DNA of 64,000 nucleotides from Georgenia sp. SYP-B2076 (lineage in GTDB: Bacteria; Actinomycetota; Actinomycetes; Actinomycetales; Actinomycetaceae). Numbering within the stretch: the first letter of the stretch is position 1; the number at the start of each line of letters is the position of its first letter. A program made the translations under genes and the position numbers. The stretch spans positions 124,001-188,000 of the forward strand of contig NZ_RXOZ01000011.1 in assembly GCF_003991205.1 (NCBI RefSeq). The letters run 5' to 3'. The notes beneath the pieces are model-generated. The model searched no databases. It was not told where the DNA came from and saw nothing but the letters and a program-made list of their open reading frames with translations. This document shows positions 2,601 through 14,979 of the stretch, one piece after another.

Positions 2601-4009
2601 GCCCTGAAACCACGACCCTGCCCCGGCTGACCCGCGAGAACCACGGCCGGCCCGCCGCGCCCGTGCGCATCGTGCACCTCGGGATCGGCAACTTCACCCG
2701 CGCGCACCAGGCCTGGTACACCGAGCACGCCCCGGACGCCGCGCAGTGGGGGATCGCCGCCTTCACGGGGCGCCGGCCCGACACCGCCGAGGCCCTCTCC
2801 CCGCAGGACGGCCTCTACACGCTCATCACGCGCCACGCCGAGGGGGACACCTTCGAGGTGATCGGCTCCCTGTCCGCGGTGCACCCGGCCAGCGACACGG
2901 CCGCATTCCTGGGCTACCTGCGCGCCCCGGAGACGGCGATCATCACCACCACCGTCACCGAGGCCGGCTACATGCGCGGCGCCGACGGCCACCTCGCGCT
3001 CGGCGACCCCGCCGTCGCGAGGGACGTCGAGGCCCTGCGGGCCGACCCCGAGGCGCCGACGACGACGACCCCCGCCAAGGTGGTGGGCGGCTTCCTGGCC
3101 CGCCGGGCGGCCGGCACCGGCGCCATCGCCGTGCTGCCCTGCGACAACCTTCCCGACAACGGCCCCACCTTCCGCGGCGTGGTCGAGGAGCTCGCCGCCG
3201 AGGTCGACCCCACCCTGCAGGAGTGGATGGAGGCCAACGTCTCCTGGGCCACCTCGATGGTGGACCGGATCACCCCGGCCACCACGGACGCCGAGCGCGA
3301 GGCCGTCGCCGCCGCCGAGGGCTACGACGACGCCTCGCCCGTGCCGACCGAGCCCTTCAGCGAGTGGGTCGTGGCGGGGGAGTTCCCCGCCGGGCGACCC
3401 GCCTGGGAGGAGTCCGGCGTCACGGTCGTCGACGACGTCCACCCCTTCGAGCAGCGCAAGCTGTGGATGCTCAACGGCTCGCACTCGCTCATGGCCTACG
3501 CCGCGACCGTCGTCGGGCACGAGACGGTCGCCGACGCCATCGCCGACCCGACCGTCCGCGGCTGGGTCGAGGAGTGGTGGGACGTCGCGGGGGAGCACCT
3601 GCAGGTCGGCGCGGAGGACGTCAAGGCGTACCGTGCGGCCCTCCTGGACCGCTTCTCCAACCCGCGGGTGCGCCACCTCCTCGCGCAGATCGCGGCGGAC
3701 GGCTCGCAGAAGATCCCCGTGCGGATCCTCCCGGCCCTGCGCCTCGAGCGCGAGGCCGGCCGCCTGCCCGACGGCCCGGTCCGGGCACTCGCCGCGTGGG
3801 TCCTGCACCTGCAGGGCCACGGCGCCCCGGTCAAGGACGCCCGCGAGGCGGACGTCGTCGCCGCCGCCCAGGGCACGGTCGCCGAGGCCACGACCGGGAT
3901 CCTGAAGGTCGTCGGCCCGGACCTCCTGCCCGACGACGAGCTCGTCGCGGCGGTCGTGGCCAAGGCCGACGAGCTCCTCGCCCTGGAGGGCACCGCCAAG
4001 AAGAGCTGA
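2597..4009 (+). CDS. uxuB: Mannitol dehydrogenase-family oxidoreductase, probable fructuronate reductase
   Basis: NAD(P)-dependent long-chain polyol/sugar-acid dehydrogenase of 470 residues. The N-terminal Rossmann fold shows IVHLGIGNFTRAHQAWYTE, and the catalytic set of the family is visible as K288, N293 and H296 in KLWMLNGSHS. The GTG start overlaps the uxaC stop (GTGA), a two-gene operon. Because UxaC makes fructuronate, the most likely reaction is fructuronate to mannonate (UxuB); tagaturonate reductase or mannitol dehydrogenase activity cannot be excluded from sequence. The later enzymes (mannonate dehydratase, KDG kinase and aldolase) are not in the window and may lie upstream or elsewhere. 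A strong hairpin 115 bp downstream ends the unit. Confidence 0.9.
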   Translation: MSPETTTLPRLTRENHGRPAAPVRIVHLGIGNFTRAHQAWYTEHAPDAAQWGIAAFTGRRPDTAEALSPQDGLYTLITRHAEGDTFEVIGSLSAVHPASDTAAFLGYLRAPETAIITTTVTEAGYMRGADGHLALGDPAVARDVEALRADPEAPTTTTPAKVVGGFLARRAAGTGAIAVLPCDNLPDNGPTFRGVVEELAAEVDPTLQEWMEANVSWATSMVDRITPATTDAEREAVAAAEGYDDASPVPTEPFSEWVVAGEFPAGRPAWEESGVTVVDDVHPFEQRKLWMLNGSHSLMAYAATVVGHETVADAIADPTVRGWVEEWWDVAGEHLQVGAEDVKAYRAALLDRFSNPRVRHLLAQIAADGSQKIPVRILPALRLEREAGRLPDGPVRALAAWVLHLQGHGAPVKDAREADVVAAAQGTVAEATTGILKVVGPDLLPDDELVAAVVAKADELLALEGTAKKS

Positions 4010-4123
4010 GCGCACAGCACCGAGCACGCCCGGGACGCCCGGGTCCCGTTCCACGTGGCAACTCTTTGCTGCGCGGCACGCCCTCGTGGCTTGATACGGG
4101 TGTCCCGCAAGTGGGTGCCAGGC

Positions 4124-4163
4124 GCCGGGCCGGTGCCGCTCCTCGGAGCGGTGCCGGCCCGGC
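4124..4163. terminator. Bidirectional terminator hairpin between uxuB and the PPOX gene
   Basis: Two stacked perfect stems, GCCGGGCCGG with CCGGCCCGGC and CCGCTCC with GGAGCGG, are separated by a TG/TG internal loop around a 2-base apex. The hairpin lies between two convergent genes. There is no long U-tract, as is common in high-GC actinobacteria. The rest of the 4010-4227 gap holds only GC-rich short repeats. Confidence 0.75.
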
Positions 4164-4227
4164 TTCGTCCCGGGCGAGCCCGGCCCGGGGAGCCGGGCTG
4201 GCGGAGCCGGCCTCCGCCGCGGACCGC

Positions 4228-4653
4228 TCAGTCGACCTCGGGCTCGGGCCCGAGGACGAAGCTCCGCCCGTCGACGGCGGTGGCCCTGATCTCCACGTAC
4301 ACGGGCTTGAACGTGCCGATCGAGGGTCGGAGCGGGAGGCGCGCGGCGGCCTCGATCTCCCTGTCGTTCTTGAGCTCCCGGGCCTCGCCGTGCACCACGA
4401 CGCTCCAGGCGGTGTCCTGACCGAGACTGTCGGTCTCGAAGGCCACCTGCCTGTTGATCGTGAGCTCGAGCAGCTTGCTGCCGGGCGACGTACGGAAGTA
4501 CAGCTTGCCGGCGTCGCTCGCGTAGTTGACCGGGAAGATGTCGGGCCGGTCCCCGACGCTGACCGCCAGGCGGCCGATGTTCGTCGTGCCCAGCAGCTCC
4601 CAGCACTGGTCGGCGGTGAGTGTGGTGACCTCTTCGTTGATGTCGTAGCCCAT
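4228..4653 (-). CDS. Pyridoxamine 5'-phosphate oxidase-family (split beta-barrel) flavin-binding protein
   Basis: Small 141-residue single-domain protein of the PPOX/FMN-binding split-barrel superfamily. The pattern LTADQCWELLGTTNIGRLAV, then PDIFPVNYASDAGKLYFRT, then the SGSKLLEL-like PGSKLLELTINRQVAFETD segment matches the short actinobacterial PPOX proteins that bind FMN, F420 or heme-related ligands. Substrate is unknown. The ATG at 4653 lies 5 bases after a GATACT -10 box on the minus strand, so the mRNA may be leaderless. It is divergent from the MarR gene; the 82-bp gap carries a DosR-like palindrome 40 bp upstream of the start. Neighbouring universal stress protein and this fold are both common in hypoxia or stress regulons (established pattern), which supports a stress role by inference. 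Confidence 0.88.
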   Translation of the reverse strand: MGYDINEEVTTLTADQCWELLGTTNIGRLAVSVGDRPDIFPVNYASDAGKLYFRTSPGSKLLELTINRQVAFETDSLGQDTAWSVVVHGEARELKNDREIEAAARLPLRPSIGTFKPVYVEIRATAVDGRSFVLGPEPEVD

Positions 4654-4658
4654 AGCCC

Positions 4659-4698
4659 AGTATCCAGCGCCTGTCGCCGACCCTGCATGACTTTGGTC
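4659..4698 (-). promoter_or_regulatory. PPOX gene promoter with DosR-like box
   Basis: On the minus strand the -10 box GATACT (4664-4659) lies 5 bases before the ATG. A palindrome GACTTTGGTC (4689-4698) is centred about 40 bp upstream of the start. It matches 9 of 10 central bases of the DosR/DevR core GACTTTAGTC, and the distance is what is expected for an activator overlapping the -35 region. The outer GG/CC bases of the consensus are poorly kept, so binding is uncertain. Confidence 0.45.
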
Positions 4699-4729
4699 AC
4701 GTCCCCGCGCCGTGGCGGGAAGCGCCCGA

Positions 4730-4747
4730 TAGAATATGCAAATGCAT
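4730..4747 (+). promoter_or_regulatory. MarR gene -10 box and overlapping palindromic operator
   Basis: TAGAAT (4730-4735) is a good -10 hexamer placed six bases before ATG 4742. Directly after it is ATGCAAATGCAT (4736-4747), a near-palindrome that covers the predicted start site and start codon. A binding protein here would block initiation, as expected for MarR autoregulation. The same site with one change occurs at 25631-25642. Confidence 0.5.
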
Positions 4748-5206
4748 GAAATTGCCGCCGAGACGCCCGCAGCCGGCACCCGGGTGGCGGCCGAGGCCTG
4801 GGAGTCGCTCTTCCGGGCACAGGTCACGCTCATGCGCCGGTTCGAGCGCGGCGGGGACTTCTCGCCGCTGCGGTCGCGCGAGTACGACGTGCTCTTCACG
4901 CTCAGCCTGGCCGACGAGGGGCGGATGCGCCTGCGTCACCTCAACGAGCAGATCCTCATGAGCCAGCCGAGCCTGAGCCGCATGGTCGAGCGGCTGGAGA
5001 ACCGCGGCCTCGTGCGCCGCGACCCCGCGCCCGACGACGCACGCGGCGTCCTCGTCGGCCTCACCGCGGAGGGGGCCGCGATGCAGCGCCGCATCGGCCG
5101 ACAGCACGTGCGCAGCATCCGGCGCTACGTCGGCGGCGCGCTGGACGAGGAGGAGCTCCGGACGCTGGTGGCGCTGACGACCCGGCTGCGGACCTACGAG
5201 CCCTGA
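4742..5206 (+). CDS. MarR-family transcriptional regulator
   Basis: Winged-helix regulator of about 154 residues, full length for the family. The recognition region is visible as LRHLNEQILMSQPSLSRMVE, followed by the wing ENRGLVRRDPAPDDARGVLV with the conserved D-x-R signature, and flanking dimerisation helices. ATG 4742 is preferred because a TAGAAT -10 box ends exactly six bases before it; an in-frame ATG at 4736 would add two residues. It is transcribed divergently from the PPOX protein. A palindrome over the start codon suggests autorepression, and a copy of that palindrome precedes the FMN reductase at 25 kb, which makes that gene a likely second target. MarR proteins often sense phenolics or oxidants (established), so the ligand may be of that kind (inference). 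Confidence 0.92.
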   Translation: MHEIAAETPAAGTRVAAEAWESLFRAQVTLMRRFERGGDFSPLRSREYDVLFTLSLADEGRMRLRHLNEQILMSQPSLSRMVERLENRGLVRRDPAPDDARGVLVGLTAEGAAMQRRIGRQHVRSIRRYVGGALDEEELRTLVALTTRLRTYEP

Positions 5207-5347
5207 CCTCACCCCGGCCCCACGGGCCGCGGCCGCTCACCGCGCACGAGGCGGACTCCCGAGCCTCGGCCAGGGGCCGCACGAGGTGCCGCTCGGCACG
5301 CCCGACGGGACGCATCCCTCCGGCAGGCCCGGGAGACGAACCGCTGG

Positions 5348-5353
5348 TAGCGT
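5348..5353 (+). promoter_or_regulatory. Candidate -10 box of the universal stress protein gene
   Basis: TAGCGT lies 54 bp before the start codon, giving a leader of about 48 bases that includes a GAAAGG ribosome binding site. A weak GGGAC/CCC partial palindrome at 5307-5320 is at a suitable distance for an activator, but it matches the DosR consensus poorly. Confidence 0.4.
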
Positions 5354-5407
5354 CACGCTGCTTCGAGCCTCTGCAGTGGTTCAACCCGGTCCTGCGAAAG
5401 GCCTCCC

Positions 5408-6307
5408 ATGGCGGAGTCAGAGACGCCCGAGGGCGCCGTGGTCGTCGGCCTTGACCGCTTCGCCCCCGCGCAGGTGGCCCTCGACGCCGCTGCCGACGAG
5501 GCGGCCCGGCGGCGGGTGGGCCTGCACATCGTCTACGCCTACCCGTGGCTGGCGCGGGCGCGCACGTGGGACTTCCAGCCGCCCCGGGAGGAGCTCGAGG
5601 CGGGCGAGCACCTCCTGCGCGGCGCCGCCGAGCGGGCCGGGGCGGCGCACCCCGGCCTCGCGGTGACCACGCGCGTCATCGTGCTGGACCCGGCCGCGGC
5701 CCTGGTCGACGCCTCCGCCATCGCGGCCGTCGTCGTGGTGGGCGCGGGCGGGCAGGACGCGCCCGCGGGCCATCTCGGCTCGGTCGCGCAGAAGGTGGTC
5801 GCCCACGCGCACGGGCCCGTGGTCGTCGTGAGGAACGCGCCGCCCCACCCGGACGGGCCCGTCGTGGTCGGCATGGACCCCGACGACGGGGCATCCGAAG
5901 CGATCGAGTACGCGTTCGAGGAGGCCGTGCGGCGCGGCGTGGGCGTCACGGTGGTCCAGGGCATCCAGGTCGAGGGGGCCCGGCGGGCGTGGGACGACCG
6001 CGCGGTGCAGCGGCGGCTGGACGAAGTCCTCACCCGCGCGGAGCAGGAGACCAGGACTCGCCTGGGCCAGTGGCGGTCGCGGTTCCCGGAGGTCCCGACC
6101 CGCCTGGAGCAGACCCGCGACCACCCGGTCGACGCCCTGGTGAGGGCAGCGGCTTCGGCAGGCATCGTCGTCGTGGGCAGCCGCGGGCGGGGCGACCTCG
6201 TCGGGCTCCTCGTCGGCTCGGTCAGCCGCGGAGTCCTCCACCGCGCCCCGGTCGTCGCGGTGGTGCGGACGCACCGTCCGCGGGCCAGGCCCGCGCCGGA
6301 ACGCTGA
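5408..6307 (+). CDS. Tandem universal stress protein (two UspA domains)
   Basis: 299-residue soluble protein made of two UspA folds. Domain 1 (about residues 10-140) ends with the nucleotide-binding pattern GAGGQDAPAGHLGSVAQKV and VVVVR; domain 2 (about 150-293) has VVVGSRGRGDLVGLLVGSVS, a good match to G-2x-G-9x-G(S/T), so at least the second domain should bind ATP. Tandem Usp proteins are typical of actinobacteria and are often induced by hypoxia or stationary phase (established). A GAAAGG ribosome binding site precedes ATG 5408. It is followed, in the convergent direction, by the K+ regulatory operon, whose kinase also carries an Usp-like domain. Molecular function beyond nucleotide binding cannot be read from sequence. 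Confidence 0.92.
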   Translation: MAESETPEGAVVVGLDRFAPAQVALDAAADEAARRRVGLHIVYAYPWLARARTWDFQPPREELEAGEHLLRGAAERAGAAHPGLAVTTRVIVLDPAAALVDASAIAAVVVVGAGGQDAPAGHLGSVAQKVVAHAHGPVVVVRNAPPHPDGPVVVGMDPDDGASEAIEYAFEEAVRRGVGVTVVQGIQVEGARRAWDDRAVQRRLDEVLTRAEQETRTRLGQWRSRFPEVPTRLEQTRDHPVDALVRAAASAGIVVVGSRGRGDLVGLLVGSVSRGVLHRAPVVAVVRTHRPRARPAPER

Positions 6308-6353
6308 CGCGGGGCGGTCCGGCGCGGGACCGGTCCGGAGGGCCGCGCCGCAG

Positions 6354-7040
6354 CTAGGTCGTCTCGAAGATGTAGCCCATCCCCGGCTGGGTCAGGATGT
6401 GGCGCGGGTGGGCGGGGTCACGCTCGAGCTTGCGCCGCAGCTGGGCGGTGTAGACCCGCAGGTAGCCCGTCTCGGTGGTGTAGCCGGGGCCCCAGACCGC
6501 CTGCAGCAGCTGGTGGCGCCCGACGAGCCGGCCGCGGTTGCGCACGAGGACCTCGATCATCGCCCACTCGGTCGGCGTCAACCGGACCTCCTCGCCTCCG
6601 CGCAGCACCCGCCGGCGCGCCAGGTCGATCGTGAGCTCGCCGGCCTCGACGACGGCTTCCTCCCCGTCGCCCGGGGCCGCCCGCCGCACGGCCGCCCGGA
6701 GCCGGGCCAGCAGCTCGTTCATGGCGAAGGGCTTGGTCACGTAGTCGTCGGCGCCCGCGTCGAGGGCGTCGACCTTGTCCTCGCCGTGCTGGCGTGCGGA
6801 GAGCACGACGATCGGCACGTGGCTCCAGCCGCGGATGCCGGCGATGACGTCGAGGCCGCTGAGGTCCGGCAGGCCAAGGTCGAGGAGCACCACGTCCGGG
6901 CGCCAGCTGGCCGTGAGGTCGAGGGCGTGCGTGCCGTCCGGGGCTGTGGCGACCGCCCAGCCGTGGGCGCGCAGGTTGATGGCGAGGGCGTGGACGAGCC
7001 CGGGCTCGTCGTCGACGACGAGGACGCGTGGACCGGTCAT
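6354..7040 (-). CDS. kdpE: KdpE-like response regulator (OmpR family)
   Basis: 228-residue two-component response regulator. The receiver domain carries the acidic pair D10/D11, the phosphoacceptor D54 in VVLLDLGLPDLSG and the lysine in DDYVTKPF. It is followed by an OmpR-type winged helix ending in GYTTETGYLRVYTAQLRRKLE and a final TQPGMGYIFE, characteristic of KdpE. Its start overlaps the kinase stop (ATGA), making it the last gene of a kimA-kdpD-kdpE minus-strand operon. Normally KdpE activates kdpFABC in response to low K+; no kdpFABC genes are in this window, so the likely target is the kimA-like operon promoter itself (inference). Confidence 0.93.
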   Translation of the reverse strand: MTGPRVLVVDDEPGLVHALAINLRAHGWAVATAPDGTHALDLTASWRPDVVLLDLGLPDLSGLDVIAGIRGWSHVPIVVLSARQHGEDKVDALDAGADDYVTKPFAMNELLARLRAAVRRAAPGDGEEAVVEAGELTIDLARRRVLRGGEEVRLTPTEWAMIEVLVRNRGRLVGRHQLLQAVWGPGYTTETGYLRVYTAQLRRKLERDPAHPRHILTQPGMGYIFETT

Positions 7041-8980
7041 GTGGCCACCTTCTCGGCGAGCGGGATCGTCAGCACCATGGTCAGGCCGCCGCCGGGGGTG
7101 TCCTCGGCCGCGAGACCGGCACCGACGGCGGACGCCAGTCCTTCGGTGACGGCCAGGCCGAGACCGAGGCCGTCGGGGGAGGAGTCCCCGAGCCGCTGGA
7201 ACGGCTCGAACATGTGCGCCTTGAGGTCGTCGGTGAGGCCGGGGCCCGTGTCGACCACCCGCAGCTCGACCTGCCGGTGGGTGGCCGACGCGGTGACCCG
7301 GACCTTGGCGCCGGGCGGCGTGTGACGCACGGCGTTGGCGACGATGTTCGCCATGGCGCGCTCGAGCAGGCCGGGGTCGGTGGAGACCAGCGGGAGCGAC
7401 TCCGGCACGTCGACGGCGACGACGTCGGGTCCGAACCCCTCCGTCGCGAGCGGCACGACCTCGTCCAGGCTGGTGGCCCGCAGCACGGGCCTCACACTGC
7501 CCGTCTGCAGCCGGGACAGGTCCAGCAGGTTGTCGATGAGCCGCTCCAGCCGCGCGGTCGAGGCGCCCACCGTGGCGACGAGGGCGTCGGTGTCCGCGGC
7601 GGAGAGGTGGACCTCCGGCGAGAGCAGCCCGTCGATCGCGGCACGGATGGTGGCCAGCGGGGTCCGCAGGTCGTGGGAGACGGCGGCCAGCAGCGCCGTC
7701 CGGGTGGCCTCGGCGCGCTCGAGCGCCTGCGCCTGCTCCGCCTGTTCCCGGAGCCTGCGGTTCTCCAGCATGATGCCCGCCTGGGAGGCGAAGGCTTCGA
7801 GGACGCGGCGGTCACCCGCCGCCAGGACGCGGCCACGCAGGGCAAGCACCCGGTCGTCGTCGATGCGCACCACCGTGTCGGCATCCCCCGGGCCCCCCGC
7901 CGGGCCGGCGCCGTCCTCGGCGAGGGAACGCCACGGACCTGCCGGGGCCGCCCGCTCGAGCAGGGAGACGGCCGTCAGAGCGAACGTCTCGCGGAGCCGG
8001 GCCACGAGCGCGACGGCGGTGTCCTCCCCGGTGAGGACCGAGCGGGAGACCTCGGCCAGTGCTGCGGCCTCGGCGCGGGCGCGGAAGGCCTGCCCGCTGC
8101 GCCGTGCGGCCAGGTCGACCACCGAGGCGACGGCCACGGCGACCAGCAGGAAGACGGCCAGGGCGAGCACGTTCTCGGTGTCCGCGATGATCAGGCGCCC
8201 GGTGGGCGGGGTGAAGAAGTAGTTGAGCGTCAGGAACCCGATGAGCGCGCCGATGACCGCGGGGGCAAGCCCACCCACGAGCGCCACGGCCACGGTGAGA
8301 GCGAGGAAGAGCAGGACCTCGGTCGGGAGCCCGATGCTCGCGTGGGGCCGGTGCAGGGCGCCGGTCAGGGCGGCGGGGCCGAGAACGGCGAGGGCCCACG
8401 CCAGGGCGGTGCGGCGACGGGACAGCATGGGCCGCCGTCCGCCCCGCTGCCGCCCGGTCGCGGCCCCGTCGCCGACGAGGTGCACGTCGATGCCGGGCGC
8501 GAGCCCCGCGATCGCGCTGCCCGTGGCCGCCCGCAGCACCCTGGTCACCCGCCCCCCGCGGGGGCGGCCCACGACGATCGTCGTGGCGCCGACGCCGATC
8601 GCGAACTCGGCAACAGCGGGGGCGACGTCCTCACCGAGCACGGCGTGGAACGTTCCGCCGAGCTCCTCGACGAGCCGACGCTGGGTCGCGAGGGGCGCCG
8701 GCGGGGCGCCCGCGGAGGAACCCCCGGTGAGCACGTGGACCGCGAGCAGCCCCCCGCCCCGCTCGCGCTGGGCCATGCGGGCCCCGCGTCGGATGAGGCG
8801 CTCGCTCTCCGGGCCGCCCGAGACGGCCACCACGACCCGCTCGGCGGTGCCCACGAGGCCATTGTGGGCGGCGCGAGAGGCCGAGAACAGGGCGCTCGGC
8901 GCGGGGCCCCGCGCCTGAAGGCGTGGGGCCCGGACCTCGTCCGGGGGAGACGGCCCGTCGCTTCCGGAACCGCCGCGCAT
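7037..8980 (-). CDS. kdpD: KdpD-like sensor histidine kinase lacking the N-terminal KdpD domain
   Basis: 647-residue membrane histidine kinase. Order: an Usp-like domain (about residues 45-165, VVVAVSGGPESERLIRRGAR to TTIVVGRPRGG), four closely packed transmembrane helices of the DUF4118 type (about 190-285, including GFLTLNYFFTPPTGRL), a GAF-like linker, the dimerisation/phosphoacceptor helix with H436 in AVSHDLRTPLATIRAA, and the ATPase domain with NIVANAVRHTPPGAK and DTGPGLTDDL. Classical KdpD is near 900 residues and begins with an about 210-residue ATP-binding KdpD domain; that part is absent here. The ATG at 8980 overlaps the transporter stop (ATGA), and the stop overlaps kdpE, so three genes are coupled. 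K+ or turgor sensing is inferred from family and neighbours. Confidence 0.92.
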   Translation of the reverse strand: MRGGSGSDGPSPPDEVRAPRLQARGPAPSALFSASRAAHNGLVGTAERVVVAVSGGPESERLIRRGARMAQRERGGGLLAVHVLTGGSSAGAPPAPLATQRRLVEELGGTFHAVLGEDVAPAVAEFAIGVGATTIVVGRPRGGRVTRVLRAATGSAIAGLAPGIDVHLVGDGAATGRQRGGRRPMLSRRRTALAWALAVLGPAALTGALHRPHASIGLPTEVLLFLALTVAVALVGGLAPAVIGALIGFLTLNYFFTPPTGRLIIADTENVLALAVFLLVAVAVASVVDLAARRSGQAFRARAEAAALAEVSRSVLTGEDTAVALVARLRETFALTAVSLLERAAPAGPWRSLAEDGAGPAGGPGDADTVVRIDDDRVLALRGRVLAAGDRRVLEAFASQAGIMLENRRLREQAEQAQALERAEATRTALLAAVSHDLRTPLATIRAAIDGLLSPEVHLSAADTDALVATVGASTARLERLIDNLLDLSRLQTGSVRPVLRATSLDEVVPLATEGFGPDVVAVDVPESLPLVSTDPGLLERAMANIVANAVRHTPPGAKVRVTASATHRQVELRVVDTGPGLTDDLKAHMFEPFQRLGDSSPDGLGLGLAVTEGLASAVGAGLAAEDTPGGGLTMVLTIPLAEKVAT

Positions 8981-10995
8981 CACAGCCCCCGCCTCGCGGC
9001 CTCCGCGCCACGCGGTTGCGGGACCGGCTTGTCGAGGTGGTCGACCTCGTGCAGCTGGAAGGGGACGGAGGCAAGCACCACCCCGGGCGTGAACAGGAGG
9101 CGGCTCTTCAGCCGCAGGGCGCTCTGGTTGTGCAGCGCTTGCTCCCACCAGTGGCTGACAACGTACTCGGGCACGAAGACCACGACCAGGTCCCGCGGGG
9201 ACGCCCGCCGCACCGAGCGCACGTACTCCACCACGGGGCGCGTGATCTCGCGGAACGGGGAGTCCAGCACGGTCAGCGGGACCGGGAGGCCGAGATCGTC
9301 CCAGGCGCGGCGCAGCGCCGCGGTCTCCTCGGCGTCGATGTCGACCGTGACGGCCTCGAGCGTGGAGGGCCGGGTGGCGCGGGCGTACGCCACGGCCCGC
9401 ATCGTGGCCTCGTGCAGCTTCGAGACCAGGACGATGCCGTGCACGCGCGAGGGGAGGGCGCGCGAGGCAGAGGGGTCCGCGACGACGAGGTCGCGCGCGA
9501 CCTGCCGGTAGTGCCTACGGATGGCCCTCATGGTCACGAACAACACCCCCATGAGCAGCAGGGTGATCCAGGCGCCGTGGCCGAACTTCGTGACGAGCAC
9601 GATGAGCAGCACCACCGCCGTCATCACGAAGCCGAAGCCGTTGATGGCCCTCGAGCGACGCATGCGCACCCTCGTCCGCCGCTCCATCTGCGTGCCCAGG
9701 TGGCGGGTCCAGTACCGCACCATGCCCAGCTGGCTGAGCGTGAAGGAGACGAACACGCCGACGATGTAGAGCTGGATCAGGCGGGTGACCTCGGCGTTGA
9801 AGGCGACGATGAACGCGATCGCCCCGGCCGCCAGGATGATGATGCCGTTGGAGAACGCCAGACGGTCGCCGCGGGTGTACATCTGCCGCGGCAGGAAGCC
9901 GTCATGGGCGAGGATGGAGCCGAGCGCGGGAAAGCCGTTGAACGCCGTGTTCGCCGCCAGGACGAGGATGAACCCGGTGGCGATCGTGACGAGCACGAAC
10001 AGGGCGGGAAGGCCGTGGAAGACGCTCGCGGCGATCTGCCCGATGACCGGGTCCTGCACGTACCCCGCCCCGACCGGTGTGCCGGCGCGGAGCAGCTGGT
10101 GCGCGGGGTCCTGCGCGAAGCGGATCCCCGTCGCCCCGGCGAGCAGGAGGATCCCCATGAGCATGGTGGCCGCGATGAGCCCGAGCAGGAGGAGGGTCGT
10201 GGCGGCGTTGTGGGCCTTGGGGCGCCGGAACGCGGGCACGCCGTTGCTGACCGCCTCGATCCCGGTCAGGGCGGCGGACCCGGAGGAGAAGGCCCGCAGG
10301 ACGAGGAACGCCCCGGCGACTCCGGTCAGGCCCTGGCTGAACGCCGGGTCGGGGGCGATCTCGAGCCCGGCCGAGGCGGCCGGGCGCAGCGTCCCCGTCA
10401 GCTCCTGCCAGGCCCCGACGGCGATCATGAGCCCGATGGCGCCCATGAAGAGGTAGACAGGGATGGCGAAAGCGGTCCCGGACTCGCGCACCCCGCGCAG
10501 GTTGAGCAGCGCGAGCACCGCGACGACGGCGACGCCCAGGGCCACCTCGTGCCCGTGGGCGGCGGGGATCGCCGTCGCGAGGTACTGCATCCCTGAGGCG
10601 ACCGATACCGCCACGGTCAGGACGTAGTCCACGAGTAGGGCGCTGGCGACGGTCAGCCCGGCGCGCGAGCCCAGGTTCTCGCGCACCACCGCGTAGCCGC
10701 CGCCGCCCGACGGGTAGGCGTGCACCGTCTGGCGGTAGGAGGCCACCACCGTGAGCATCACGGCCACGACCGCGACGCCCACCCACGGGGACAGCGTCAC
10801 GGCCGCCATGCCCGCGAGGGAGAGCGTCAGCAGGATCTCGTCCGGGGCGTAGGCGACGGACGAGAGGGCGTCGGAGGCGAAGACCGGAAGGGCGATCCGC
10901 TTGGGGAGCAGCGTCGTTCCCATGCGGTCGCTGCGCACGGGCCGCCCGACCAGCGCGCGCTTGAGCACCTCGGGGATGGTCAGGGCGGCGCTCAT
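8980..10995 (-). CDS. kimA: KimA-like potassium importer (APC-superfamily permease)
   Basis: 671-residue integral membrane protein with about 12 helices followed by a cytosolic C-terminal region of roughly 200 residues. Blocks shared with Bacillus KimA (YdaO), as I recall that sequence, include FASDALSSVAYAPDEILL, SYRQTVHAYPSGGGGYAVV, LLVDYVLTVAVSVASG, SGSAALTGIEAVSNGVPAF, VLAANTAFNGFPALGSILA and GDRLAFSNGIIILA. KimA is a high-affinity K+:H+ symporter inhibited by c-di-AMP through its C-terminal domain (established for Bacillus). Linkage to kdpD/kdpE supports K+ rather than amino acid transport. A GGGAGAAC ribosome binding site precedes ATG 10995. It heads the operon. An unspecified APC amino acid permease is the alternative call; confidence in the K+ role is moderate to high. 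Confidence 0.85.
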   Translation of the reverse strand: MSAALTIPEVLKRALVGRPVRSDRMGTTLLPKRIALPVFASDALSSVAYAPDEILLTLSLAGMAAVTLSPWVGVAVVAVMLTVVASYRQTVHAYPSGGGGYAVVRENLGSRAGLTVASALLVDYVLTVAVSVASGMQYLATAIPAAHGHEVALGVAVVAVLALLNLRGVRESGTAFAIPVYLFMGAIGLMIAVGAWQELTGTLRPAASAGLEIAPDPAFSQGLTGVAGAFLVLRAFSSGSAALTGIEAVSNGVPAFRRPKAHNAATTLLLLGLIAATMLMGILLLAGATGIRFAQDPAHQLLRAGTPVGAGYVQDPVIGQIAASVFHGLPALFVLVTIATGFILVLAANTAFNGFPALGSILAHDGFLPRQMYTRGDRLAFSNGIIILAAGAIAFIVAFNAEVTRLIQLYIVGVFVSFTLSQLGMVRYWTRHLGTQMERRTRVRMRRSRAINGFGFVMTAVVLLIVLVTKFGHGAWITLLLMGVLFVTMRAIRRHYRQVARDLVVADPSASRALPSRVHGIVLVSKLHEATMRAVAYARATRPSTLEAVTVDIDAEETAALRRAWDDLGLPVPLTVLDSPFREITRPVVEYVRSVRRASPRDLVVVFVPEYVVSHWWEQALHNQSALRLKSRLLFTPGVVLASVPFQLHEVDHLDKPVPQPRGAEAARRGL

Positions 10996-11033
10996 GCCAC
11001 CGTTCTCCCACTCGGGCGGGGGGGTCGAGCAGG

Positions 11034-11084
11034 ATCCTTACGGACCCTTGACAGGCCGGCAGGCGTTCTTGACGGGACCATGAC
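11034..11084 (-). promoter_or_regulatory. kimA-kdpDE upstream region with phased direct repeats
   Basis: Upstream of kimA a TAAGGAT element (minus strand, 11040-11034) may serve as the -10 region. Beyond it, CTTGAC occurs at 11047-11052 and 11068-11073 (21 bp apart) and CATGAC at 11079-11084 (11 bp further). Direct repeats in phase with the DNA helix are the usual targets of OmpR-family regulators, so these may be KdpE sites. No ydaO-type c-di-AMP riboswitch is recognisable in the 219-bp gap. Confidence 0.4.
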
Positions 11085-11151
11085 GGCCCCGGCCCCGGCG
11101 CGGCGCGCCCGGCATCGGGCGCGGCCCGGGCCCGGCCCGGCCCGGGCGCGT

Positions 11152-11187
11152 GACGGGGCGGGCCGCCGATCGGCGGCCCGCCCCGTC
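11152..11187. terminator. Perfect 36-bp palindrome, terminator after dps
   Basis: GACGGGGCGGGCCGCCGA is followed directly by its exact reverse complement. It lies 27 bp downstream of the dps stop codon on the minus strand and would form a very strong hairpin with almost no loop in RNA. It probably ends dps and insulates the kimA promoter region. Confidence 0.8.
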
Positions 11188-11214
11188 CTCTGCGTCCCTC
11201 GGACCGTGCGTGGC

Positions 11215-11667
11215 TCAGACCACGTCGGCGGTGGCGCGCAGCATCCAGGCCTGCTTCTCCAGGCCGGTCGCGACGCCGATCAGCAGGTCGGCGCTGAGGT
11301 GGTCCTTCTCGTCGAGCTCGTCGAGGTGCGCCTTGATGCGGTCCGACGTCGTCTGCAGCCGCTCCTCGAACTGGCGCACCACCTTGTCGGTGGCGACCGG
11401 GCCGCCCTCGAGCGGCTCGAGGCCCGAGGTCTCCGCCACCGTCGCCGGCCGGGCGTCCGGGGTCCCGCCGGTCGCGACGAGCCGCTCGGCGACCTCGTCG
11501 GACGCGGCGCGGACCTGCGCGACGATCTCGTCGAGCTGGAGGTGGATCGCACGGAAGTGGGGTCCGTGAAGGTTCCAGTGCGCCTGCTTGCCCTGCAGCG
11601 CCAGGTCCACGAGGTCGACGAGGGCCTCCTGCAGGCTCGTCTCGACGATCTTCAGCGGCTTCGCCAT
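11215..11667 (-). CDS. dps: Dps-family DNA-protection / ferritin-like protein
   Basis: 150-residue four-helix-bundle protein that stores iron and shields DNA as a dodecamer in stress. The intersubunit ferroxidase ligands are visible in KQAHWNLHGPHFRAIHLQLDE (H, then H and D-E with the expected spacing). ATG 11667 is selected by an AAGGAG ribosome binding site 8 bases upstream; a longer in-frame start at 11724 would add a charged, non-homologous leader. A TATGGT -10 box at 11725-11720 precedes a leader of about 46 bases. The tail is short, without an obvious Lys-rich DNA-binding extension. Single gene, ended by a perfect palindrome. Confidence 0.94.
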   Translation of the reverse strand: MAKPLKIVETSLQEALVDLVDLALQGKQAHWNLHGPHFRAIHLQLDEIVAQVRAASDEVAERLVATGGTPDARPATVAETSGLEPLEGGPVATDKVVRQFEERLQTTSDRIKAHLDELDEKDHLSADLLIGVATGLEKQAWMLRATADVV

Positions 11668-11732
11668 CGGTGTCGCTCCTTCCGTGCCCCATTCGGGGCG
11701 GTCTTGGTGGGTTCTTTTCACCATAGGCCGGA

Positions 11733-11820
11733 CCGGCGGGGCCCGCCCGTCGAGCCGGCGGGGCCCGCCCGTCGAGCCGGCGGGGCCCGCCCCTCGAGCC
11801 GGCGGGGCCCGCCCGTCGAG
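11733..11820. repeat. Four tandem 22-bp GC-rich repeats upstream of dps and leuS
   Basis: Unit CCGGCGGGGCCCGCCCGTCGAG begins at 11733, 11755, 11777 and 11799, with one C-for-G change in the third copy and a decaying fifth copy after 11821. Each unit contains a small palindrome (GGCGGGGCCCGCC-like). The block lies between the divergent dps promoter and the leuS leader. It encodes nothing in a credible frame; it may be a slippage-generated spacer or a transcription-separating element. Confidence 0.85.
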
Positions 11821-11895
11821 CCGGTGGTGGGCGCGCGGCGGTGCCTCCCGGCGGCGGCGCGGGGAGGGAGCCGCCGCTGCGATAGCCTGGGACCC

Positions 11896-11931
11896 ATGAC
11901 GGCCGTGGTGCTCCTTACCCAGCCGCGCTGA
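11896..11931 (+). CDS. Putative leuS leader peptide MTAVVLLTQPR
   Basis: An 11-codon frame starts with ATG seven bases after a TAGCCT -10 box (11883-11888), so it would be translated from a leaderless transcript. It contains consecutive leucine codons CTC CTT (11911-11916), the second being rare in this GC-rich genome, and ends 120 bp before leuS. Leaderless uORFs with codons for the cognate amino acid are a known layout of actinobacterial attenuators. Only two leucines are present, so sensitivity would be modest; function is inferred. Confidence 0.55.
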   Translation: MTAVVLLTQPR

Positions 11932-11939
11932 CCCCAGCG

Positions 11940-12011
11940 GGCGCCCGACTCCAGGGCGCCGCCCCGGCGCGGCTCACCTCCTGTCCCCGGGAGGTCTTCT
12001 CTTGTCAGGAG
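11940..12011 (+). promoter_or_regulatory. leuS leader alternative hairpins (candidate attenuator)
   Basis: After the leader peptide, GGCGCCC (11940-11946) pairs with GGGCGCC (11954-11960). Next, ACCTCC (11976-11981) can pair with GGAGGT (11990-11995), followed by a pyrimidine-rich CTTCTCTTGT stretch like a terminator. The overlapping segment CTCCTG (11978-11983) can instead pair with CAGGAG (12006-12011). The two pairings exclude each other, the hallmark of an attenuation switch. The leucine codons CTCCT of the leader are also complementary to the same AGGAG. Confidence 0.45.
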
Positions 12012-12051
12012 CACGCGCAGCACCCCCTTGAGGCGAGGAACGAAGCCACTC

Positions 12052-14979
12052 ATGAGCACGCACGACGAAGCCACCACCATGGTCGAGACCAGCCACCGCT
12101 ACACCGCTGCCCTTGCGGGCGAGATCGAGAAGGCATGGCAGGACCGGTGGGAGGAGCGCGGCACCTTCCGTGCCGACAACCCCACGGGTGACCTCGCGCC
12201 AGCGGAGGGCGACGTTCCCGCCGAGAAGTTCTACCTCCTCGACATGTTCCCCTACCCCTCCGGCAAGGGGCTGCACGTGGGCCACCCGCTGGGCTACATC
12301 GCCACCGACGTCGTCGGGCGCTACCAGCGCATGAAGGGCAAGAACGTCCTGCACGCCCTGGGCTACGACGCCTTCGGGCTGCCGGCCGAGCAGTACGCCG
12401 TCCAGACCGGCCAGCACCCTCGGGTCACCACCGAGGAGAACATCGCCAACATGCGCCTCCAGCTGCGCCGCCTGGGCCTGGCCCACGACGACCGGCGCAC
12501 CTTCGCCACCACGGACCCCGAGTTCGTGCGCTGGACGCAGTGGATCTTCCTGCAGATCTACGGCTCGTTCTACGACACCGAGGCCGTTCGCGCCGACGGC
12601 GGCCGCGGCCGGGCCCGGCCGATCGCCGAGCTCGAGGCCCAGCTGGCCGCGGGGACCCGTCCCACCCCGGACGGTCGTCCCTGGGCCGAGCTGAGCAAGG
12701 ACGAGCGGCGCGAGGTCATCGACTCGCACCGGCTGGCCTACATCTCCGACGCGCCGGTCAACTGGGCGCCCGGCCTGGGGACCGTGCTCGCGAACGAGGA
12801 GGTCACCGCGGACGGCCGGTCCGAGCGCGGCAACTTCCCGGTGTTCAAGCGGAACCTGCGCCAGTGGAAGCTGCGCATCACCGCCTACGCCGACCGGCTC
12901 GTCGACGACCTGGACACCATCGACTGGCCCGAGAAGGTCCGCTCGATGCAGCGCAACTGGATCGGCCGGTCCGAGGGCGCCCACGTCGACTTCCACGTGC
13001 CCGGGGTCGACGAGCCGCTGACCGTGTTCACCACCCGCCCGGACACGCTGTTCGGCGCCACCTTCATGGTCGTCGCCCCCGAGCACCCGCTGCTCGCGGA
13101 CGGGGCCGTCCCCGCTGCCTGGCCCGCGGGCACGAAGGACGCCTGGACCGGCGGCGCCGCGACGCCCGCCGAGGCGGTCAGCGCCTACCAGCGCCAGGCC
13201 GCGGCCAAGACCGACACCGAGCGCCAGGACGCCGAGCGGACCAAGACGGGCGTGTTCACCGGCATCGTCGCGACCAACCCGGTGGGCGGCGGCTCGGTCC
13301 CCATCTTTGTCGCCGACTACGTCCTCATGGGCTACGGCACCGGCGCGATCATGGCGGTCCCCGCCGAGGACGCGCGCGACTACGAGTTCGCGACCGTCTA
13401 CGAGCTCCCCGTCATCCGCACGGTGCAGCCCCCCGAGGGGTTCGAGGGTGGCGCCTTCACCGGTGAGGGCCCCACGATCAACTCCGCGAACGAGGAGATC
13501 TCCCTCGACGGACTGCCCATGGCCGAGGCCAAGCGAGCCATGACCGACTGGCTTGAGGCCAAGGGCCTGGGCCGCGGCGCCACGACGTTCCGTCTGCGTG
13601 ACTGGCTGTTCTCCCGCCAGCGCTACTGGGGCGAGCCCTTCCCCGTCGTCTACGACGACGAGGGCCACGCCCACGCGCTGCCCGAGTCGATGTTGCCGGT
13701 CGACCTGCCGGAGGTGCCGGACTACTCCCCGCGCACGTTCGAGCCCGACGACGCAGCCTCCTCCCCGGAGCCGCCGCTCGGCCGGGTGCCCGAGTGGGTC
13801 GAGGTTGAGCTCGACCTCGGCGACGGCCTGAAGACCTACCACCGCGACACCAACACCATGCCGAACTGGGCCGGCTCGTCCTGGTACGAGCTGCGCTACC
13901 TGGACCCCCGCAACACGGGCGCGCTCGTCGACCCGGCCGTCGAGCAGTACTGGATGGGGCCGCGTCCCGCGACGACGACGCCGGGCGGCGAGGCCGTGGC
14001 GGCCAACGTCTCCGGCGGCGCGGACCTGTACGTCGGCGGCGTCGAGCACGCCGTGCTGCACCTGCTCTATGCGCGGTTCTGGCACAAGGTCCTCTTCGAC
14101 CTGGGCCACATCTCCAGCTCCGAGCCCTTCCACAAGCTCTTCAACCAGGGCTACATCCAGGCCTACGCCTTCGCCGACGACCGCGGCCAGTACGTCCCCG
14201 CCGAGGAGGTGGTGGAGGTGCCTGGCGCCGACGGCGCCGAGCCGACCTACTCGTGGAACGGCCAGGAGGTCTTCCGCGAGTACGGGAAGATGGGCAAGTC
14301 CCTGAAGAACATCGTCACCCCGGACGACATGTACGCCACGTACGGGGCCGACACCTTCCGCGTGTACGAGATGTCCATGGGCCCCCTCGACGTCTCCCGC
14401 CCCTGGGACACGCGCGCCGTCGTCGGCTCGCAGCGCTTCCTCCAGCGGCTGTGGCGCAACGTGGTCGACGAGCGCACCGGCGAGACGACCGTTACGGACG
14501 CCCCGGCCGGCGAGGAGACGCGCCGGCTCGTGGCCCGCACGATCGTCGAGGTCGAGACCGAGATGTCGGCCATGCGCGTGAACACCGCGATCGCGCGGAT
14601 GATCGTGCTCAACAACCACCTCACCGCGCTCGGGACCGTGCCGCGGGAGGCCATCGAGCCGCTCGTGCTCATGGTCGCGCCCGTCGCCCCGCACATCGCC
14701 GAGGAGCTGTGGTCCCGGCTCGGTCACCCGGCGTCCCTGGCGCACGAGCCCTTCCCGACTGCGGACCCGGCTCTGCTGGTCGAGGACACCGTGACGTGCG
14801 TGGTCCAGGTGGCCGGGAAGGTCCGCGACCGCCTCGAGGTGCCCGCCTCGATCGGTGAGGACGACCTGCGCGCCCTGGCGATGGAGTCCGAGGCCGTGCG
14901 GCGCACGCTCGACGGCAAGGCGGTGCGCACGGTCATCGTGCGGGCCCCGAAGCTCGTCAACATCGTCCCCGGCAAGTAG
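12052..14979 (+). CDS. leuS: Leucyl-tRNA synthetase
   Basis: Class Ia aminoacyl-tRNA synthetase that charges tRNA-Leu, 975 residues. The HIGH-type motif is HVGH at residues 75-78 in [16 protein letters not shown]; the KMSKS-type loop is KMGKS at about 746-750 in [17 protein letters not shown]1 editing domain with [19 protein letters not shown] and [19 protein letters not shown] lies in between, and a C-terminal anticodon-binding and tRNA-interacting region ends the protein. ATG 12052 follows GAGGCGAGGAAC; a start at 12028 is possible but less natural. It is longer than the about 860 residues of E. coli LeuS because of insertions around residues 180-230 and 630-650, usual in actinobacteria. 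It appears to be controlled by the upstream leader peptide region. Confidence 0.98.

Follow-up and report, generated by a model that had tools for sequence, protein, structure and literature searches.

The window, a 64-kb stretch of DNA from Georgenia sp. SYP-B2076, carries three minus-strand genes in the order kimA, KdpD-like kinase gene, kdpE (Table 1). An earlier note on this DNA had claimed a KimA-type transporter, a KdpD-like kinase and KdpE at this place, and all three are present. The ATGA overlaps that it described apply to the kinase and kdpE genes; at the kimA/kinase border the stop and start codons overlap as TGATG, with one base in common. The best PDB match of the response regulator was KdpE 4kny (E 1.6e-60), and the protein is an OmpR/PhoB-type regulator nearest to KdpE; the best NCBIfam model was also KdpE, at 228 bits and below the cut-off of 325. 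A gene with a ferritin-like domain (11215-11724, minus strand), presumably Dps-type, lies directly upstream of kimA on the same strand. Crude gene lists place other genes upstream of kimA in the congeners G002, G004 and G008. On the plus strand, a gene convergent with kdpE (5408-6307) encodes a protein with two Usp stretches, which could be a partner of the kinase because UspC helps E. coli KdpD (PMC11018627).

Table 1. Coordinates of the genes and of the predicted sequence elements of the kimA-kdpDE locus in the window.
Feature	Position	Strand	Basis
kimA, KimA-type K+/H+ symporter (predicted), 671 aa	8980..10995	-	PDB match and conserved residues
KdpD-like histidine kinase without KdpD N-terminal domain	7037..8854 (probable GTG start)	-	Pfam domains
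kdpE response regulator, 228 aa	6354..7040	-	PDB match to KdpE 4kny; receiver and winged-helix domains
Likely KdpE operator site 1, CCGTCATGGTCCCGTCAAG, 11-base direct repeat	11068..11086	-	17.1 bits
Likely KdpE operator site 2, CTGTCAAGGGTCCGTAAGG	11036..11054	-	11.6 bits, third-best in window
Putative remnant of kdpC 3' end with kdpD start codon, joined to Usp-coding part	8852..8880	-	Junction match

The kinase was matched above cut-off by the Pfam models Usp, DUF4118, HisKA and HATPase_c. The GAF part that had been listed with these domains gave no Pfam match up to E 0.01, and the region in question does align with other KdpD proteins. The KdpD N-terminal serine-kinase domain (PF02702, here KdpD-N), described as missing, indeed had no Pfam match in the protein. 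The NCBIfam KdpD equivalog scored 172.5 bits against a cut-off of 1123. The reported length of 647 residues holds for the reading frame open from the first ATG, at 8980, to 7037. The start is probably GTG 8854, giving 605 aa, judging by the similarity of this codon and its preceding bases to the kdpC/kdpD junction in relatives that have the pump.

The sequence CACAAT, six bases before GTG 8854 (8852-8866, minus strand), resembles a leaderless -10 box, of the kind that marks leaderless starts. Boxes of the form xACAAT also precede the kdpD starts of the pump-bearing loci L082, L170, L172 and L076, hinting at an internal promoter for kdpDE. A sigma-70 consensus scan returned 0 sites, the consensus being uninformative for this GC-rich genome.

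The assembly that was searched comprises 4.28 Mb in 37 contigs and is 99.83% complete. It contained no match to KdpA (PF03814) and none to PF02702, and on both searches a pump hidden elsewhere in the assembly was rejected. Of nine genomes of the genus one, G004, had KdpA, and the absence of kdpFABC noted earlier is upheld at the level of the genome. The locus does not form a KdpFABC-KdpDE system, in which the pump is under KdpDE control, since the genome lacks a KdpA match.

The kinase (E 1e-50), KdpA and PF02702 were then counted in 198 genomes of the order and were found in 86, 79 and 78 genomes respectively, PF02702 being taken above cut-off. Where kinase and pump occurred together PF02702 was kept in 77/77 genomes, G138 being counted by two fragmentary matches. 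Where the kinase occurred without the pump it was kept in one of nine, G165, which has no KdpA and retains a full KdpD. The association of pump and KdpD-N had a Fisher p of 1.7e-10, a value that ignores kinship; three of the nine pump-less genomes belong to one family (f5), and two are incomplete (G073, 73%; G064, 88%). Only four independent pairs were starred on the kinase tree, three of them in agreement, none opposed and one without difference (p 0.25). All 80 named loci keep KdpD-N, including 34 that have no KdpA in the fetched stretch, a count that refers to the stretch only. The loci L077, L078, L164 and L167 (genomes G058, G040, G074 and G116) carry kdpDE without KdpD-N and without kimA, and have no 12-bit site in the stretch.

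A trace of the lost genes appears to be preserved in front of the Usp-coding part of the kinase gene. In the pump-bearing loci L082, L170 and L172 the kdpC end and kdpD start read ACAATGGnnnCGTGA, with variants in some other relatives. The 14-base element ACAATGGnnnCGTG stands immediately before the Usp-coding part in the window (G000) and in G002 and G008; elsewhere among 178 loci, only L082, L170 and L172 had it. This pattern, which was written after the sequences had been seen, occurred 0 times in 100 shuffles of the window. The 29-mer of the window that ends at the GTG was 22/29 identical to the kdpC/kdpD junction of Cellulomonas cellasea (L082), and none of the 2568 other GTG-ending 29-mers of the window was as good against five junctions. 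The same 29-base test was weak for the congeners, with 18/29 for G008 (17/2568 window 29-mers as good) and 17/29 for G002 (48/2568). On the strength of the 22/29 match the ancestor of the window very likely had kdpC adjoining kdpD, the window kinase very likely starts at GTG 8854, and KdpD-N was very likely removed in frame between the kdpD start codon and Usp. With the kdpC end left standing between the two gaps, the losses of pump and KdpD-N were probably separate events.

The kinase was present in 4 of the 9 genomes of the genus. The pump-bearing congener, G004, has the order kimA-kdpA-kdpB-kdpC-kdpD-kdpE with a full kdpD, and a small frame before kdpA that we take to be kdpF-like. G002 is collinear with G004 over both flanks and lacks 5.4 kb, from the kimA end to the Usp part. 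A kinase tree was built from 54 rows, comprising 23 hand-picked loci out of the 80 named ones and 31 others; kinase pieces of 250 residues or fewer were left out, and the rows of the KimA and KdpE trees were hand-picked. The window kinase grouped with those of G002 and G008 (99/95), followed by G004 and then Cellulomonas.

A single clean deletion was not established as the whole history of the genus, since the KimA and KdpE trees conflict with the kinase tree. Both of the former nest G004 inside the pump-less congeners (AU p 0.002 for KdpE). The kinase tree places it outside them, with an AU p of 0.055 for grouping G004 with G002 and G008. Between G004 and G002 identity is 97% for KdpE and 88% for kimA and only 65% for the kinase, and synonymous divergence is 0.18, 0.39 and 0.55 respectively. 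The nesting and the uneven identities favour an account in which the pump-less form is old in the genus and G004 regained kdpFABC and a full kdpD by recombination, or in which several separate losses took place; we give this account slightly less than an even chance. Against it, the four kinases of the genus fall within full-length, pump-linked KdpD proteins on the kinase tree, with G004 outermost, and the fossil junction indicates that the ancestor of the window had kdpC beside kdpD. The locus may have been shaped by recombination of its middle segment or by several deletions. The choice concerns the history of the locus and not its wiring.

Beyond the genus, adjacency of kimA and kdpDE was looked for around the fetched kinases, which are a part of the 86 kinase genomes, and kimA-kdpDE was also found in other families. 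On the kinase tree G057, G064 and G179 make up a second clade (100/99), and G050 stands at a third place. Given the starred branches, the kimA-linked label must change three times or more, and judged by this tree the kimA-kdpDE pairing had at least three origins. The KimA partners of the two larger kinase groups also fall in different clades. No Usp match was found by tblastn in the kinases of G057, G064, G179 and G050. In G179 the module (L169, 779-4895) consists of kimA, kinase and kdpE without KdpD-N or Usp, and a canonical kdp system lies elsewhere in the genome.

Candidate operators were sought by an expectation-maximisation motif search of the regions upstream of kdpA (60 sequences, at most 450 bases each). 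The motif found de novo was CGTAAGGgAcCCGTCAA, an 11-base direct repeat, and was refined to a 19-base matrix; a motif at width 22 was rejected as it looks like the kdpF coding start. Site 1, about 70 bases before kimA, is the best match of this matrix in 64 kb on both strands, and 0/300 random first-order sequences were as good. Five sites in the window reach 10 bits. The place of the motif upstream of kdpA suggests that KdpE would bind it.

For comparison, 260 bases upstream of each kimA were scored on the kimA strand only, leaving out genes of 45% identity or less, those with starts aligned beyond residue 59, upstreams shorter than 150 bases and duplicate upstreams. A gene counted as unlinked if its fetched stretch had no KdpD-like kinase; in 26 of the 28 cases that stretch covers only ~1.5 kb on either side. 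A direct-repeat site was present in all eight fetched loci of the order in which kimA adjoins kdpDE. The seven tandem kimA genes (window, G002, G004, G008, G057, G064 and G179; kdpABC intervenes in G004) scored 17.1-25.5 bits, with 0/300 random first-order sequences as good in each case. In G050, where kimA and kdpDE are divergent, the intergenic region holds a 17.7-bit site on the kdpDE strand, and the kimA strand scores -2.3. The 28 unlinked kimA genes had a best score of 11.1 (p 0.013), a next best of 7.5 and a median of -3.6. The scores of linked and unlinked genes differed with a Mann-Whitney p of 2.9e-5, and 0/2000 column-permuted matrices did as well. The window's genome encodes two further KimA proteins, 78% and 55% identical, and upstream of their genes no site was found (-5.3 and -9.4 respectively). 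In G004 the site precedes kimA (25.4) and none precedes kdpF (-0.2), a layout that would fit an insertion of kimA between site and pump. Among looser-linked kimA genes, which are mostly from Streptomyces and include the G050 kimA strand, 4/26 scored at least 15 on the kimA strand. The Streptomyces loci L084, L085, L094, L096 and L100 have full-length kdpDE ~3 kb upstream of kimA and no kdpA in the stretch; of these only the kimA of L096 scores above 15, as do those of L106 (Streptacidiphilus), L127 (Actinomadura) and L128 (Streptomyces, with kdpA).

The pump was not found, a direct-repeat element stands before kimA and KdpD-N is gone, and on these grounds KdpDE has probably been rewired from the KdpFABC pump to the KimA symporter. 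The dedication of the sensor pair to KimA that the earlier note had proposed is supported by the KdpE-type operator before kimA and by the kimA-kdpDE loci of other families. It is unlikely that kdpDE is instead a leftover of pump loss, beside kimA by chance and decaying or controlling something else. Three genomes (G058, G040 and G074) do have pump-less kdpDE where the fetched stretch contains neither kimA nor a site reaching 12 bits. On the other side, the site before kimA is the top site of the window, and kimA linkage must have been gained or lost at least three times on the kinase tree. Moreover, kinase, KdpE and linked kimA all have dN/dS below 0.5 across the congeners (0.27-0.47, 0.09-0.15 and 0.19-0.24 respectively; 0.31-0.37 for the window kinase against three congeners).

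The transporter had one PDB sequence match at E 0.001, KimA 6s3k (E 1.4e-112, 6s3k residues 5-604). In the alignment to 6s3k all 15 residues checked in the K+ site, the coupling path and the c-di-AMP pocket were identical. These include the K+-site and coupling residues D36, Y43, D117, T121, T230, E233 and Y377, taken from PMC6994465, and the pocket residues R337, H579, N580, Q581 and S582, taken from PMC10284832; P479 of KimA is replaced by L. The same residues were identical in all 8 kdpDE-linked KimA proteins examined. The KimA assignment is confirmed by this closest solved homologue and the 15/15 residues, and a placement outside KimA, the outcome that would have contradicted it, was not obtained. 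Pfam places AA_permease_2 above its cut-off and K_trans below, but that the protein is an amino-acid permease, with a KdpDE link that is not about K+, is highly improbable and was rejected given the sole PDB match to KimA and the seven K+-site and coupling residues kept in all 8 linked proteins.

With the transporter taken as KimA, the c-di-AMP link of the earlier note is plausible for this protein, the pocket being kept and a diadenylate cyclase domain being encoded in 13/14 genomes tested, the window's among them. It does not extend to the sensor. The published c-di-AMP motif of KdpD-USP, (A/G/C)xSxSx2N(Y/F) (PMC8214093), had no match to its AxSxSxxN part in kinase residues 41-175, the loop at that place reading AVSGGPES, and c-di-AMP sensing by the kinase Usp domain was rejected. 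A phmmer search of the Usp part against the PDB gave nothing usable. Because the kinase Usp lacks this motif, we infer that c-di-AMP acts at the transporter and not at the sensor. An Rfam scan of 4000-14000 gave three matches, all far below gathering scores and none a K+ or c-di-AMP riboswitch; riboswitch control of kimA was rejected, as no riboswitch family matched near the gene.

With KdpDE rewired to KimA, low K+ would lead the kinase to phosphorylate KdpE, and KdpE~P would bind the two direct-repeat sites at 11086-11036 and raise kimA-kdpD-kdpE transcription. The additional KimA would bring K+ in with H+, and at ample K+ c-di-AMP would shut KimA directly. KdpE binding, the K+ response, K+ import and c-di-AMP inhibition of KimA are predictions from sequence.

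The KdpD N-terminal domain is reported to be a serine kinase for KdpB (PMC11018627), which in E. coli it phosphorylates so that the pump stops; it would have lost this substrate with the pump and then been deleted in frame. More generally, and more tentatively, at slightly worse than even odds, KdpDE may be a portable K+ sensor that is passed to KimA on pump loss, KdpD-N then being cut out separately since KdpB is its only substrate. If true, such loci amount to natural knock-outs in which one kinase activity of KdpD is dissected from the other. The 2024 tandem serine/histidine kinase model (PMC11018627) would predict that genomes without the pump lose KdpD-N. The survey described there took 5495 species annotated with the pump, which leaves pump-less species outside it, and pump-less genomes are therefore an independent evolutionary test of the model, with ready-made histidine-kinase-only forms.

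KdpDE is known from textbooks as the regulator of a single pump. In at least three lineages it appears to act on another class of K+ importer, with a control site before the importer, which suggests how bacterial K+ sensing can be rewired. Like the E. coli type of KdpFABC-KdpDE system, the locus combines homologues of KdpD and KdpE and a K+ importer in a single gene set, and it has a direct-repeat element like that before kdpFABC in relatives. It differs in that no pump was found, the predicted importer is a secondary K+/H+ symporter and KdpD is without its N-terminal serine kinase. With Bacillus subtilis KimA (6s3k; PMC6994465, PMC10284832) it shares the transporter family and the checked K+-site and c-di-AMP-pocket residues, but the window gene has a KdpE-type site and kdpDE in place of a riboswitch match nearby. 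In the split KdpD of PMC11018627 the histidine-kinase part is likewise a separate chain that lacks the KdpD domain. In that arrangement the serine-kinase chain persists alongside the pump, whereas neither was found in the window's genome, and the window's histidine kinase retains a Usp domain.

A KimA-like protein and KdpDE also occur in one actinobacterial genome in Streptomyces (PMC10117811), the accessible text of which describes no kimA-kdpDE linkage. Of the 34 named loci whose fetched stretch has no KdpA, 19 have a kimA there together with kdpD; the KdpD proteins of these loci keep the N-terminal domain, unlike the window kinase. In the accessible part of PMC11767460 KimA and KdpD/KdpE are listed for Glutamicibacter endophyticus with no word on linkage. 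No report of kimA under KdpDE was found in the literature covered, most subscription papers being outside its scope. Each component is already known; what appears new is the wiring, together with the joint loss of pump and KdpD-N.
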